In this document: positions 2,818-13,945 of the stretch, in pieces | How the letters are laid out: each line of letters starts with the position of its first letter | Numbering within the stretch: position 1 is the first letter of the stretch | Assembly: GCA_016199925.1 (NCBI GenBank) | Contig: JACQFT010000215.1 | Span: forward strand, 1-35,249 | Origin: Opitutia bacterium | GTDB taxonomy: Bacteria; Verrucomicrobiota; Verrucomicrobiia; Opitutales; Opitutaceae | Direction of reading: 5' to 3' | DNA: 35,249 bases | Notes under the pieces: generated by a model | The model's database searches: none | The model's input: the letters and a program-made list of their open reading frames with translations, nothing else | Told to the model about the DNA's origin: nothing | Made by a program: the position numbers and the translations under genes

Positions 2818-4482
2818 ATGCATCCACGCATGAATCAGCCCACCGCCACCGTCCGCCGCGACTACTCCGCGGCCTGGCTGGGCTGGCTGGTCCTCGGGCT
2901 CGGGCTCCTGGCGGTGGCGTGGCTGCTGCCGGTGAACATCAAGTCGCTCAACCCGGCGCTCCTGCGCGAGGCCGGCCGCCACTCGACCACGGCGGCAGTG
3001 TTTGCGCGAGGGCTGCTCGACCTCGACAAACCCGGCCCCGCGGCGCTCGTGCTCGACGCCGCGCGGCAGGTCAACGACCCCAGCGCCGGGGCGGTGGGCG
3101 TGCTGCTCAAAGGCTTTGCCGTGCGCCATCCCGAGATGATGCCGTGGGGCGGCTGGGATGTGGCGCTGGAGCCGCTGCTCACGGGCAAGAACGCCGCAAC
3201 CGCGCCCGGCTCCGTGCCGGTGCTGAAATTTCTCGTCGTGCAGTCGGCGCGCGAGAATCTCCGCCGCTATCTCGCCGTCTCGCGCCTGCCCGGCGTGCAG
3301 ACGCTGCTCAAGACCGCCGACCTGACTTCGACCAGCCGGTTTGTGCCCGCGATGCGGCCGGGCGGCCAGCCGCTGGAAGCGGTCATCCTGCTCACGACTT
3401 ACCTCTGGCAGAGCGAGCATCTGTCGCCTTCGCTCCAGCGCGAAGTGCGCAGCCTGGCCGAGAACGCCGTCGCCTCCGGCCAGATGGGGCCGCTGGAAGA
3501 TTTCTACGTCGACATCCTCACGCTGGGCAAGCGCCTCGACTGGGAGCAGCTTTCGGAACTCCTCCGCACGACGACGAGCATCGGCACCGTCACGCAGTTT
3601 GCGCACCTCGCGCGCGTCGCGCCCGAGCATCTGCCCGTCATCTACACGGCCGCGCTCATGACCAAGTCCGCCGATGCGGTCGCGCGCTATCTGATCGCCT
3701 ACGGCAAACCCGGCGCGGAGAACCTGCGGTTCGCGCTCTCCTTCGGCGAGGGCGCCGTCGAGCAGCTCGTGCGGCGCCAGGTGCCGGTGACGAGCGGCGC
3801 CGGACCGGAGTTCGAGCTCGGCGCGGGCTTCGCGCTCGGCCATCCGGAGCTGGCGATTTTCGGCAAATACGCCGCGTTCCTCGCCGGCGTTTTCCTGCTG
3901 CTGCGATCGGTCGACCTGAAGCTCTTCTTCTCGGTCGAGTCGGCGCTGCGCGGCGCGTTCCCGCGGATGGGCAGCGGCGTCCTCGCGGCGATCCTCACCT
4001 TCCTGTTTTTCATCTTCTCGGAGCAGTTCCTCCTCAAGGCGGCCGCCTCCGAATACCAGATCCGGTTCACCTTCCCCGTGCTCGTCGCCGCCGCGACCGG
4101 CGCGACTCCCGCTCACTCAACCACCACCGCCACCATGGAAATGTCCACCGTCCTCTCCATCGCCCTCTTCGCCCTGCTGCAAGTCGGCATGTATGTCACC
4201 TGCCTGCTGAAAATCACCGAGGTCGAGCGCCAGGCGCTGCCGCCGCTGACCAAGCTGAAGCTCATGGAAAACGAGGAGAACCTCTTCGACGGCGGCCTCT
4301 ATCTCGGCATCGCCGGCACGGCCACCGCGCTCGTGCTCCAGGTGCTCGGCCTGATCGACGCGAACCTGCTCGCGGCCTACTCGTCGAATCTCTTCGGCAT
4401 CGTCTGCGTCGCGCTCGTGAAGATCCGCCACGTCCGCCCCTACAAGCGCAAACTCATCCTCGAGTCCCAAACCGGCGCCTGA
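2818..4482 (+). CDS. Uncharacterised multi-pass membrane protein
   Basis: Long ORF with N-terminal TM (LGWLVLGLGLLAVAWLL), a helical central domain and several C-terminal TMs. Alternative start at Met 2830. No family recognised. Confidence 0.8.
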   Translation: MHPRMNQPTATVRRDYSAAWLGWLVLGLGLLAVAWLLPVNIKSLNPALLREAGRHSTTAAVFARGLLDLDKPGPAALVLDAARQVNDPSAGAVGVLLKGFAVRHPEMMPWGGWDVALEPLLTGKNAATAPGSVPVLKFLVVQSARENLRRYLAVSRLPGVQTLLKTADLTSTSRFVPAMRPGGQPLEAVILLTTYLWQSEHLSPSLQREVRSLAENAVASGQMGPLEDFYVDILTLGKRLDWEQLSELLRTTTSIGTVTQFAHLARVAPEHLPVIYTAALMTKSADAVARYLIAYGKPGAENLRFALSFGEGAVEQLVRRQVPVTSGAGPEFELGAGFALGHPELAIFGKYAAFLAGVFLLLRSVDLKLFFSVESALRGAFPRMGSGVLAAILTFLFFIFSEQFLLKAAASEYQIRFTFPVLVAAATGATPAHSTTTATMEMSTVLSIALFALLQVGMYVTCLLKITEVERQALPPLTKLKLMENEENLFDGGLYLGIAGTATALVLQVLGLIDANLLAAYSSNLFGIVCVALVKIRHVRPYKRKLILESQTGA

Positions 4483-4485
4483 GCC

Positions 4486-5880
4486 ATGAACAAGACGCTC
4501 CTCCTCATCATCTGCGACTTCCTCCTGCTCAACCTCCTCGCGTTGACCAAGTGGGAGAAGGCCGAGCCGCCGCGCGCCGCGCAGGTCGCCGCCGCGCAGC
4601 AAGCCGCCGCCGCCACGCCCGCCGTCAACGCCGACCTGGTCGAACTCATGCGCATTTCCCTCGAAGACGAGAAGTCCACCCGCACGCAGCTCGCTCAGCA
4701 GCTCGCCTCGACGCAGGGCTCGCTCTCCGAGCGCGAGAAGAACCTCGCGGCCCTCCAGCAGCAGAAGGGCCAGTTGGAGAATTCCCTCGCCGCGACGCAG
4801 TCCACGGCGCACGAACTGGAGCAAAAATACACCGCCGCCGCGCAGGAGGCCGGGCTCACCAAGGAGCAGCTCGCCAAGATGCAGCGCGAGCTGGAGGAGC
4901 GCCGCGCCGAGGCCGAGCGCCAGAAGCAGGAACTCGCCCGGATGGAGAAACAGAACACCGAGGCGCGCCAGCGCATCGAGAACCTGAACGTCGCCGTGCG
5001 CGTCGCCGAGCAGGAGAAACAGATGCTCGCCAGCAACCTGACCGAGGCCAAACAGCAGGTCGAGGTCGAGCGGCAGGAGCGCGCCCGCGTGCAGGAGCAG
5101 ACGGTGCAGCTCGCGCAGGGCGTCGGCCAGCTCGCGGAGAAATCCGGCGAGCTGTCCAAGGAGATCCGCGACAACCGCCCGATCAACTCGAACCTCATCT
5201 TCACCGATTTCCTCGCCAACCGCGTGCAGACCAGGCTCACCACGCGGCGCCCGGGACTCTTCGGTCCGAACGTCAAGGACAAGGACGCGCAGACGATCCT
5301 CGTGAGCGACGGCCGGCACACCTACGCGCTGATGCACCTGAGCGACACGCCCTTCAGCCTCACCTTCGAGTCGCCGCCCGACTACGACCTGATCGCCGGC
5401 AAGCTGAGCCGCGGCGCGTTCAACGCCCCGGTGAAAGAGCTGGCGTTCCTCGCGCTCGATCCGCGCCTCGTGGTGCTCCCGGTCGACGATTCCCTCGCGG
5501 CGCTGATGGGCGCGAAAATCTATAAGCTCGCCGCCGAGCCGTTCAAGTTTCCCGAGGCCGTGGTCGTGCGCGCCGACGACGGCAAGTATGGCGAGACGCC
5601 GTTCCGCATCGACGCGGCGAACCCCGGCTACGTGAAGCTCGACAACCGGATCGTCACGCGGCTGTTCGGCGAATTCTCGCCGAAGCGCGGCGATCTCGTC
5701 TTCAGCAAATCCGGCGACCTGATCGGCATGATGGTGAACAACGATTATTGCGCCGTGCTCGGCGATTTCCGCGCCGCGCACACGCTGACCGCGGGCGACG
5801 ACGTCGTGCAGCCGAAGACCGGCGCGACCTTCGCCGATCTCGCCGCACGCTGGCAGCGGCTGCCGTTCAAGCTGCAGTGA
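4486..5880 (+). CDS. Signal-anchored coiled-coil protein with C-terminal possibly trypsin-like (degenerate) domain
   Basis: MNKTLLLIICDFLLLNLLALTKW anchor, a long Q/E/K-rich heptad region, then a globular C-terminus ending ...KRGDLVFSKSGDLIGMMVNNDYCAVLGD. Starts 3 nt after the upstream gene ends. Confidence 0.8.
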   Translation: MNKTLLLIICDFLLLNLLALTKWEKAEPPRAAQVAAAQQAAAATPAVNADLVELMRISLEDEKSTRTQLAQQLASTQGSLSEREKNLAALQQQKGQLENSLAATQSTAHELEQKYTAAAQEAGLTKEQLAKMQRELEERRAEAERQKQELARMEKQNTEARQRIENLNVAVRVAEQEKQMLASNLTEAKQQVEVERQERARVQEQTVQLAQGVGQLAEKSGELSKEIRDNRPINSNLIFTDFLANRVQTRLTTRRPGLFGPNVKDKDAQTILVSDGRHTYALMHLSDTPFSLTFESPPDYDLIAGKLSRGAFNAPVKELAFLALDPRLVVLPVDDSLAALMGAKIYKLAAEPFKFPEAVVVRADDGKYGETPFRIDAANPGYVKLDNRIVTRLFGEFSPKRGDLVFSKSGDLIGMMVNNDYCAVLGDFRAAHTLTAGDDVVQPKTGATFADLAARWQRLPFKLQ

Positions 5881-10418: not shown

Positions 10419-10900
10419 GCTTTGGGCTCGAAGCGGCTGGCGGCGCGATTTTTCTTCACCGAGCCGGCCGGAGCGACGATGCCGTTCATCGCGATGTAAA
10501 CGCCCGGCGGGAGCGCCTGGACGGCACCGATGGCGCAGCCGAGGTTGAAGACGGCGTCGCTGTTGCGGAAACGCGCCGGCTGCATGGAGCCGGTCAGGAC
10601 GATGACTTTGCCCTCGATCCCCTCGAGGCGGGCGGCGGTCTCGGTCATGGTGTCGGTGCCATGGGTGATGAGGATCAGGTGCTCGGGCGCCGCTTCGACC
10701 CGCTGCCGGATGAGCGCGCGGTCCGCCCCGGTCATGGCGAGGCTGTCCTTTTGGAGAACCGACTCGACGACGAAATCGAACGTGACGTTGGACTCGCGCA
10801 GGACGGGGCCGACTTGCGGCTCGCCGACTTCGTAGGCGCTGGCGGCATCGAAGTAAACCTTGTCGATCGTCCCCCCGGTGGAAATCACGCGCAGTTGCAT
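10415..10900 (-). CDS. Single-domain (N-terminal domain only) asparaginase-like protein
   Basis: 161 aa MQLRVISTGGTIDKVYF..., LILITHGTDTMTETAARL, VLTGSMQPARFRNSDAVFNLG: asparaginase TGGTI and HGTDT motifs present. Start trimmed from 11134. Confidence 0.88.
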   Translation of the reverse strand: MQLRVISTGGTIDKVYFDAASAYEVGEPQVGPVLRESNVTFDFVVESVLQKDSLAMTGADRALIRQRVEAAPEHLILITHGTDTMTETAARLEGIEGKVIVLTGSMQPARFRNSDAVFNLGCAIGAVQALPPGVYIAMNGIVAPAGSVKKNRAASRFEPKA

Positions 10901-11142: not shown

Positions 11143-12321
11143 ATGCTGCGGAGACCGAACATCGTCTGGATCGTCACCACGCAGTGGCGCGCGCAGGCCT
11201 GCGGCTACGCGGGCGACCCGAATGCGCGCACGCCGTGGCTGGATGCGTTGGCGAGCGAGTCGACGAACTACCCGCAGGCGGTCACCCCGCACCCGATGGG
11301 GCCCCAGGCGCGCGCGGCGTTGCTCACCGGAAAACTGTGCCCGCTGAACGGAGTGTCCGACTACTGGGACCCGCTGCCGGTCGACCAGCGGACAATCGCC
11401 CACGCGATGCGGGAGCGGGGCTACACGACGGCGTTCTTCGGCAAGTGGCATTTGGCGGAACGAGACCGCGACGTGGCGCTGGTGGGTGAGGCGCACGCCA
11501 AGATGCTGGTGCCCGAGCAAAGGCGGGGGGGATTTGAATTTTGGGAGGGATTTGAGAGCGGGTTCTTGATCAACGATCCGTGGCTCCATGGCACCAGGCT
11601 CGCCGAGCCGAGGCATTTCAAGGGCTATCAATCGGACGTGGTCGGCGAGCGGGCGGCGCGGTGGATGCAGGAATCGCACGGCGCGCCGTATTTCTGCGTG
11701 GTGAGTCTGGAACCGCCGCATCCGCCCTATGACGCGCCCGCGCCACACCTGAAGGCCTACGATGCGGGGGCGATTGTCTTGCGGGCCAATGTGCCGCGCG
11801 GCGGCGAAACCGAAGCGCAGGCGCGCCGGGAACTGGCCGGTTACTACCGGCACCTCGAGGCCACGGACCGGGCCGTCGGGCGATTGCTGGCCGAGATCGG
11901 CCTCGGCGAAACCGTGGTCGTTTTTACTTCCGTTCACGGCGACATGCACGGATCGCACGGGCACTTCCGCAAGGGCTGGCCCTACGAGGAGTCGGTTCGA
12001 GTCCCGCTCCTGGTCCGGCACCCGGCGGGTGCGCCGAAGACGGACGGCAGCATCGTCAGCCTGGTCGATCTCCCCGCGATGACGGTGGCCTGGGCTGAAC
12101 AAAAGGAATGGTCTTCGACCCGGCAGACCGCGTGGATCAGCATACCGAAGGCCTCGGCGCTCGCCAAACAATGCCCGTTTGCCTGGCACGGATCGAGAGG
12201 GGCGCGGCAGAAACAGATTCGAGTCGAACCCTCCGCCGCCGCGGCGGCGGCCGGAGAACGGCCGACCGAATTGCGGTTCGATTTGGCCGCCGATCCGTTC
12301 GAGCTGTGCCGTTTGGAGTGA
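11143..12321 (+). CDS. Sulfatase-fold protein, predicted catalytically inactive
   Basis: PNIVWIVTTQWRAQACGYAGDPNARTPWLDALA, QARAALLTGK, GYTTAFFGKWHL, VVFTSVHGDMHGSHGHFRKGWPYEESVRVPLLVRHP: clear sulfatase scaffold, with catalytic Cys/Ser and metal residues substituted. Confidence 0.88.
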   Translation: MLRRPNIVWIVTTQWRAQACGYAGDPNARTPWLDALASESTNYPQAVTPHPMGPQARAALLTGKLCPLNGVSDYWDPLPVDQRTIAHAMRERGYTTAFFGKWHLAERDRDVALVGEAHAKMLVPEQRRGGFEFWEGFESGFLINDPWLHGTRLAEPRHFKGYQSDVVGERAARWMQESHGAPYFCVVSLEPPHPPYDAPAPHLKAYDAGAIVLRANVPRGGETEAQARRELAGYYRHLEATDRAVGRLLAEIGLGETVVVFTSVHGDMHGSHGHFRKGWPYEESVRVPLLVRHPAGAPKTDGSIVSLVDLPAMTVAWAEQKEWSSTRQTAWISIPKASALAKQCPFAWHGSRGARQKQIRVEPSAAAAAAGERPTELRFDLAADPFELCRLE

Positions 12322-12430: not shown

Positions 12431-13945
12431 TCAGGCGCGGCTGGCCGGCGCGGGATTGAGCGCGACCGGCGGCGCGGCGGTGGCTGGCGGCGGGCAAGTC
12501 TCGGCGAGCTTCGCGCGAGGGAGGTGCAGCCGGAAGACTGCGCCGGTCGCGACCGGGAGCGCTTCGATCTCGGCGCCGTGCGCCTGCACGAGGCGGCGGC
12601 AGAGCGAGAGGCCCAGGCCGTTGCCGGTGGCTTTGGTGCTGTGGAACGGCTCGAACAGCCGCGCGCGCACGGCCGGCGACAGGCCGGGTCCGGTGTCGGC
12701 GAAATCGACGCAGACAACGCCGCTCTGCTCGCGCACGGTGACGCGGATGGCGCGCTCGCCCGGGTGCGTCTCGAGGGCCTGGCGGGAGTTGTTGAGCAGG
12801 TTGAGGAAGACCTGGCCGATTTGCTGCGGATCGATGCAAAGCGGCGCCAAATCGGGCGGGCAGTCGAGCGTGAGGACGATCTGGGCGCGGCGCAGGTCGG
12901 CGCCGATGAGCTCTTGCGTTTCCGCCAGCAGCGTGGCGAGCGAAGTCAGGCGGCGCGTGGGCGGGGCGTTGCGGGCGAAGGCGAGGAGGTTGCCGACGAT
13001 GCGCCGCACGCGCTCGGCGGTCAGTTGCAGTTTGGTGCCGGCCTCCACCGCGGCGGGGCCGCAACTGCCGGTCGCCAGCAGGTCGGCATAGCCGGTGATG
13101 ACGGTGAGCGGGCTGTTGATCTCATGCGCGATGCCGGCCATCAGTTCGCCGAGCAGGTGCATCTTGTCGCCGTGCATGAGGCGGCGGTGCGCCTCCTGGA
13201 GGTCGGCGAAGGCCTGGCGCAACTCGGCGGTGCGCTCCGCGACGCGTTGTTCGAGCACGGCGTTGGCGGCCTCGATCCGGCGCTCGTAGCGACGGGTGAG
13301 CGAATGGGCGACGCCGGCGCCGACGGCCGCCATCCCGAGGACGAGTGGCGCCGCCAGCGCGCCCAAGCGCCAGGCGAACGCCCGGAAATGTTGCGCGGTG
13401 GCCGCCATGTCTTCGTGCACCGCCACCAGCCAGGAGGTGCCCGGGACCGGCTCGAAATAGACCTGAACGGCATGCTGGCCGTCGGGGCCCGGGATGGAGT
13501 ATTGGCCGCAGCACGTCTGGCCCGCCGCGGCCACGCGCCCGACCGGAGTGAGCCGCCCCGTGCCGTCGAGGCGGACTTCCTGCGCGGCCGTCGAGGTGCC
13601 GACCAGCGCGGGGTTCGGGTGGGTGAGGAGCCGGCCCTGCGCGTCGAGCAGCGAGATATATCGCGTGCTCTCGGTCATGCCCTGCATGGTGAGTTGCAGG
13701 CGGGCGACGACCTGCGCCGGCGTCGCGCCCCCCTGCAGTTCGTCCGCGAGGAGCCGGCTCGTCGCCTTGGCCTGCCAGCGAGCGGCGTCGAGCCGCTCGT
13801 CCATCAGTTCGTCTTTGAATTGCTCAAACAAAAACCAGCCGCCGGCGGCGCTGACGACCAACACGCTGGCGGCGACGAGCAGGAAAATTTTTGAGCCGGG
13901 ACGACTCAGTCGCCAGGGAGTAAGCGTGGCCGAGAGCGGATACAT
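12431..13945 (-). CDS. Membrane sensor histidine kinase (Cache-like sensor, HisKA, HATPase_c)
   Basis: TM, periplasmic domain, TM, then LLGELMAGIAHEINSPLTVITGYADLL (H-box), NLLNNSRQAL (N-box), FADTGPGL (G1) and TGNGLGLSLCRRL (G2). Confidence 0.93.
   Translation of the reverse strand: MYPLSATLTPWRLSRPGSKIFLLVAASVLVVSAAGGWFLFEQFKDELMDERLDAARWQAKATSRLLADELQGGATPAQVVARLQLTMQGMTESTRYISLLDAQGRLLTHPNPALVGTSTAAQEVRLDGTGRLTPVGRVAAAGQTCCGQYSIPGPDGQHAVQVYFEPVPGTSWLVAVHEDMAATAQHFRAFAWRLGALAAPLVLGMAAVGAGVAHSLTRRYERRIEAANAVLEQRVAERTAELRQAFADLQEAHRRLMHGDKMHLLGELMAGIAHEINSPLTVITGYADLLATGSCGPAAVEAGTKLQLTAERVRRIVGNLLAFARNAPPTRRLTSLATLLAETQELIGADLRRAQIVLTLDCPPDLAPLCIDPQQIGQVFLNLLNNSRQALETHPGERAIRVTVREQSGVVCVDFADTGPGLSPAVRARLFEPFHSTKATGNGLGLSLCRRLVQAHGAEIEALPVATGAVFRLHLPRAKLAETCPPPATAAPPVALNPAPASRA

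Follow-up and report, generated by a model that had tools for sequence, protein, structure and literature searches.

The window analysed here (35,249 nucleotides of contig JACQFT010000215.1, from a member of the Opitutaceae) contains at 11143-12321 an open reading frame of 392 codons followed by TGA, which we describe as a pseudo-sulfatase gene. The gene, its diagnostic motifs and a repeat that lies upstream are listed below, with residue roles and the equivalent AtsA positions taken from PMC5066984.

10958-11081, no strand assigned: inverted-repeat element of about 124 bp whose ends are 23-bp inverted repeats; it lies upstream of the pseudo-sulfatase gene, between that gene and its divergent neighbour
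11143-12321, forward strand: pseudo-sulfatase gene; 392 aa, without a signal peptide, sulfatase fold with a shortened C-terminal subdomain
11176-11190, forward strand: TTQWR; Thr13 replaces a calcium-ligand Asp (AtsA Asp13), Gln14 and Arg16 are kept
11290-11313, forward strand: HPMGPQAR; Gly53 stands for the formylglycine (FGly) Cys/Ser and Gln55 for the Pro of the FGly motif, Arg57 (AtsA Arg55) is kept, His50 is new and invariant
11443-11451, forward strand: KWH; Lys101 (AtsA Lys113) is invariant, His103 (AtsA His115, catalytic base) is variable
11719-11730, forward strand: HPPY; His193 (AtsA His211, active site) is invariant (106/106)
11932-11949, forward strand: VHGDMH; Val264 replaces the calcium-ligand/activating Asp (AtsA Asp317), His265, Asp267 and His269 are invariant
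11965-11979, forward strand: FRKGW; Lys277 (AtsA Lys375) is kept (106/106), Arg276 and Trp279 are invariant and clade-specific

The gene occupies a broadly syntenic site made up of peptide deformylase, the uncharacterised genes C7 and C6, variable genes and the pseudo-sulfatase, followed by a hybrid histidine kinase, which is convergent with it and adjoins it in most loci, and by an AsmA/YhdP-like gene. The variable position is taken by a dienelactone hydrolase or, as in the window, by an asparaginase-domain gene, which is here the divergent neighbour with a likely start near 10900. C6 (4486-5877 in the window, 3677-5122 in locus L091) is conserved, encodes an N-terminal hydrophobic segment followed by a coiled coil and matches no Pfam family; it adjoins C7, a membrane-like gene that also lacks a Pfam family, and occurs in Opitutaceae and in the class beyond them. 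An operon with the upstream C7-C6 pair was considered and rejected, as the genes are adjacent and co-directional in only a few loci and are separated by intervening genes elsewhere. At 12431-13945 the window carries a HisKA/HATPase histidine kinase convergent with the pseudo-sulfatase gene; the kinase found there in other family members is another one, a large PAS hybrid, whose homologue in the window's genome lies on another contig (C143). Of 14 family genomes sampled, four (G003, G016, G127 and G156) gave no match to the sensor region of the hybrid kinase yet keep the pseudo-sulfatase gene. Present evidence makes an obligate partner of neither the kinase nor C6, since the former does not occur throughout the family and the latter extends beyond it. 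The gene neighbours indicated no pathway, and no recognisable glycan-utilisation locus was present at the conserved chromosomal site. The inverted-repeat element, whose arms are 91% complementary, had 54 matches at roughly 40 places in a DNA search of the genome (67-97% identical); it is a MITE- or REP-like dispersed repeat and belongs to the context of the gene, not to the conserved anatomy of the protein.

That the encoded protein has a sulfatase scaffold, as the preliminary description had proposed from the sequence, is certain. It matched PF00884 in a Pfam profile search (E=6.8e-37, 127.8 bits against a curated cut-off of 25), and 64 PDB sequences matched at E<=1e-3. The best of these was 2QZU (E=1.3e-30), and every listed match was a sulfatase or a related hydrolase of the alkaline phosphatase (AP) superfamily. 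An AlphaFold2 model had a mean pLDDT of 94.4 and a pTM of 0.94, and its best Foldseek matches among solved sulfatases reached query-normalised TM scores of 0.84-0.86. NCBIfam and Pfam searches returned no specific subfamily. Because in most orthologues the start Met lies only 2-7 residues ahead of the conserved Pro5 and the first strand, the protein has no signal peptide and is probably cytosolic.

Relative to active S1 enzymes, the protein has lost Asp13 (Thr13), Cys51 (Gly53), Pro53 (Gln55 or Phe55 among orthologues) and Asp317 (Val264). The sequence ATGGGGCCCCAGGCGCGC at 11296-11313 encodes M52-G53-P54-Q55-A56-R57, so that the reported GPQAR, with neither Cys nor Ser, does stand where FGly sulfatases have C/S-x-P/A-x-R, and orthologues share the loss: position 53 is Gly in 105 and Ala in one of 106 orthologues, and Cys in 20/20 active relatives. 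Two calcium ligands, Asp13 and Asp317, are missing as well. Asp13, which is 96% conserved in the SulfAtlas study (PMC5066984) and present in 20/20 active relatives, is Thr in 105/106 orthologues and Ser in 1/106. Here the earlier reading holds in part. The Asp before Gln is indeed lost from TTQWR; the nearest active relatives, however, read DQ[WH]R with no second Asp ahead of it (x-D-Q-W-R), so this is the one acid lost at the site, and loss of a second N-terminal Asp was ruled out. At position 264 (codon 11932-11934, with SVHGD ending at 11943), 98 of 106 orthologues have Val, six Ala, one Thr and one Met; the residue is never acidic, whereas all 20 active relatives have Asp within DHG, in agreement with the reported change of DHGD to VHGD. 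Gln14 and His265 (AtsA has Asn318 at the latter position) are also the usual residues of the closest active sulfatases. Sequence could hardly establish more firmly that this protein is not an FGly sulfatase.

The other side of the pocket has been kept. Arg57, Lys101, His193 and Lys277, the oxyanion-side residues that correspond to the active-site Arg55, Lys113, His211 and Lys375 of FGly sulfatases, are present in 106/106 orthologues, as is His265. Position 103, in contrast, is His in 84 (including the window protein), Gly in 17 and Gln in five of the 106; its AtsA counterpart, His115, is the base that resolves the sulfo-enzyme (PMC5066984). This combination of invariant oxyanion-side residues and a drifting catalytic-base position suggests an anion-binding, metal-poor pocket. 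In addition, the clade has 39 positions with at least 96% conservation whose residues seldom occur in active relatives; several are polar and adjoin the old active-site motifs. His50, His269, Arg276 and Trp279 are among the invariant residues new to the clade, and further conserved residues lie outside the catalytic motifs.

A search in 57 relatives recovered an orthologue from almost every member of the family, and the resulting alignment (A1, 32 rows), which supplied the profile for the genome counts below, reads T[T/S]Q, HPxG.xxR and [V/A/T]HGD in 32/32 rows. A GTDB-wide scan added 80 loci, giving 106-109 distinct sequences; the record titles of these loci, where specific, name Opitutaceae, Opitutus, Lacunisphaera, Didemnitutus, Cephaloticoccus and similar taxa. 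The same replacements occur in all 109 distinct orthologues (46-78% identity), none of which keeps CxPxR or DHGD. Synonymous codons vary at the replaced sites (GGG/GGC/GGT/GGA at 53, all four ACN at 13 and all four GTN at 264); it is thus selection, not recent ancestry, that keeps these amino acids in place. By the Nei-Gojobori method, which is crude and for which dS is partly saturated here, dN/dS was about 0.08-0.26 for the closest pairs, 0.12-0.24 for the window protein against its nearest relatives, and 0.24 at the median of 3766 pairs with dS<1.5, with a maximum of 0.58 in any such pair; selection is not relaxed. Shared replacements and a dN/dS well below 1 rule out a young pseudogene or a sequencing error, and the family shows what characterises pseudoenzymes: an orthologous clade, lost catalytic residues and a fold under purifying selection.

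A FastTree phylogeny of 158 sequences placed the pseudo-sulfatases in one monophyletic group (local support 0.907) on a stem of 0.76 substitutions/site. Their sister group consists of CxPxR sulfatases from the same order, mostly reading PLC[CT]P[FYA]R and SDHGD, and the node that joins the two groups has a support of 1.0; no intermediate with a partly lost site was seen among the relatives fetched. Thus the FGly residue and two of the four calcium ligands were lost once, in the ancestor of the Opitutaceae, and the altered site was strictly conserved thereafter. The active-looking sister clade (L161-L166) shares the SDHGDMHGSHG loop, including the His at position 269 in most members, and apparently also lacks a signal peptide.

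Using the A1 profile at E<=1e-90, we found the pseudo-sulfatase in 230 of 252 Opitutaceae genomes, in 162 of the 165 that are of high quality (>=90% complete, <=5% contaminated) and in 49/49 genera; the genomes that lack a match are mostly incomplete. Across 384 genomes of the class, full members (474-692 bits) were confined to the Opitutaceae, the next best match scoring 301 bits, and no member outside the family passed the threshold in 289 genomes of the phylum. Every matching genome has one copy except G033, which has two (L035 and L059), a diverged pair in which the former FGly motif reads FSR or FAR. The gene is retained in genomes as small as 2.1-2.4 Mb (G242 and G156), and although many Opitutaceae hold large sets of active sulfatases, it provides the sole PF00884 match, at its exact coordinates, in G011, G016 (100% complete), G017 and G022. 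The pseudo-sulfatase is therefore a near-universal single-copy core gene of the Opitutaceae, kept even where no other gene of the sulfatase fold was found. The orthologues, the dN/dS values and this core-gene status bear out the suggestion, made from the window alone, of a non-catalytic role or a different chemistry.

With its catalytic and metal-binding residues lost but the protein and its charged pocket strictly kept, the pseudo-sulfatase very probably acts otherwise than by cutting sulfate esters. Judged by which residues are retained, ligand binding is its most likely function, and we slightly favor the view that it is an ancient, clade-defining cytosolic pseudo-sulfatase that retains an anion-binding pocket and acts by binding a ligand. 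In such a scheme the cytosolic protein would have given up sulfate ester hydrolysis by the FGly/calcium mechanism; the kept basic half-pocket (Arg57, Lys101, His193 and Lys277), together with the new invariant His50, His269, Arg276 and Trp279, would bind an anionic ligand, for which a sulfate or phosphate ester held without a catalytic metal is a candidate, and some core process may depend on it as a binding or regulatory protein that responds to its ligand. The broader proposition, that in a core protein which defines the family a sulfatase pocket stripped once of its nucleophile and calcium ligands was rebuilt to receive oxyanions or esters without a metal (or into a new enzyme) and now serves a near-universal purpose in the cytosol that has nothing to do with sulfatase activity, seems to us evenly balanced between holding and failing.

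The main rival to ligand binding is an enzyme that lost the FGly/calcium chemistry and assembled another catalytic site, possibly metal-independent or re-metallated, from Thr13, His50, His265, Asp267, His269 and Arg276. The 39 clade-specific positions, with their polar members near the old motifs, would fit such a site, the invariant His50, His265, Asp267 and His269 could equally form a new catalytic or metal center, and the near-universal distribution would suit a metabolic enzyme. We nevertheless consider it unlikely: the FGly position offers no candidate nucleophile, both acidic residues that were key metal ligands have been replaced, the neighbourhood holds no conserved pathway genes and, to our knowledge, hydrolysis in the alkaline phosphatase superfamily is metal-dependent. 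It is more doubtful still that the protein is a structural scaffold or protein-protein interaction module with a vestigial pocket. Many pseudoenzymes work in this way, and the conserved residues outside the catalytic motifs would be consistent with it, but a vestigial pocket would have no need of Arg57, Lys101, His193, His265 and Lys277, invariant in 106/106.

Very little probability attaches to a role as regulator or partner, perhaps a decoy or one half of a heterodimer, either of active sulfatases or of the use of sulfated glycans. The large sulfatase sets of many family members invite this reading, yet the conserved chromosomal site lies outside any recognisable glycan-utilisation locus, the protein is probably cytosolic, and in four genomes it is the only PF00884 protein and therefore cannot merely assist active sulfatases; these genomes rule out partnership as a general role, which could still hold in some species. 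Equally improbable is a non-canonical sulfatase or phosphodiesterase, or a decaying gene or sequencing artefact, since, despite the intact frame and fold, no orthologue keeps the FGly residue or the Asp317 equivalent, and dN/dS lies well below 1. A putative ligand-binding pseudo-sulfatase remains the reading that we prefer.

Across more than 200 genomes, profile-based annotation would label these proteins as sulfatases or sulfatase-like hydrolases. Sulfatase counts serve as an ecological trait in Verrucomicrobiota, and some Opitutaceae hold only the dead 'sulfatase'. Having arisen once, with active enzymes as its sister group, and being strictly conserved and near-universal in one family with no member found outside it, the clade also offers a clean natural experiment in pseudoenzyme evolution.

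Among known systems, the FGly-dependent sulfatases (SulfAtlas S1, PF00884; L161-L167 of the same order; PDB 2QZU and 6J66) share with the pseudo-sulfatase the fold, the Arg/Lys/His/Lys residues of the oxyanion side, the context of a DQ-type N-terminal motif and the C-terminal subdomain. Unlike them, the pseudo-sulfatase has no FGly Cys/Ser, motif Pro, Asp13 or Asp317, varies at the His115 position, is about 400 aa long instead of about 450-530 and sits on a long stem branch. The phosphonate monoester hydrolases/phosphodiesterases of the S1_0 group (2W8S and 2VQR) have the same fold but, in contrast to the pseudo-sulfatase, retain the FGly Cys and the metal ligands. Our literature search for pseudo-sulfatases found no description of a family-wide one. 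Of the 4058 sequences that the SulfAtlas study covered, essentially all had Cys or Ser as the nucleophile, and nine probably inactive sequences from Lentisphaerae and Planctomycetes had lost a positively charged residue of the catalytic site (PMC5066984). These sporadic, probably inactive sulfatases likewise combine the fold with a lost catalytic residue. A parallel in a different fold is given by the bacterial pseudo-orthocaspases (PMC6426788), which also form a conserved clade of catalytically dead homologues.
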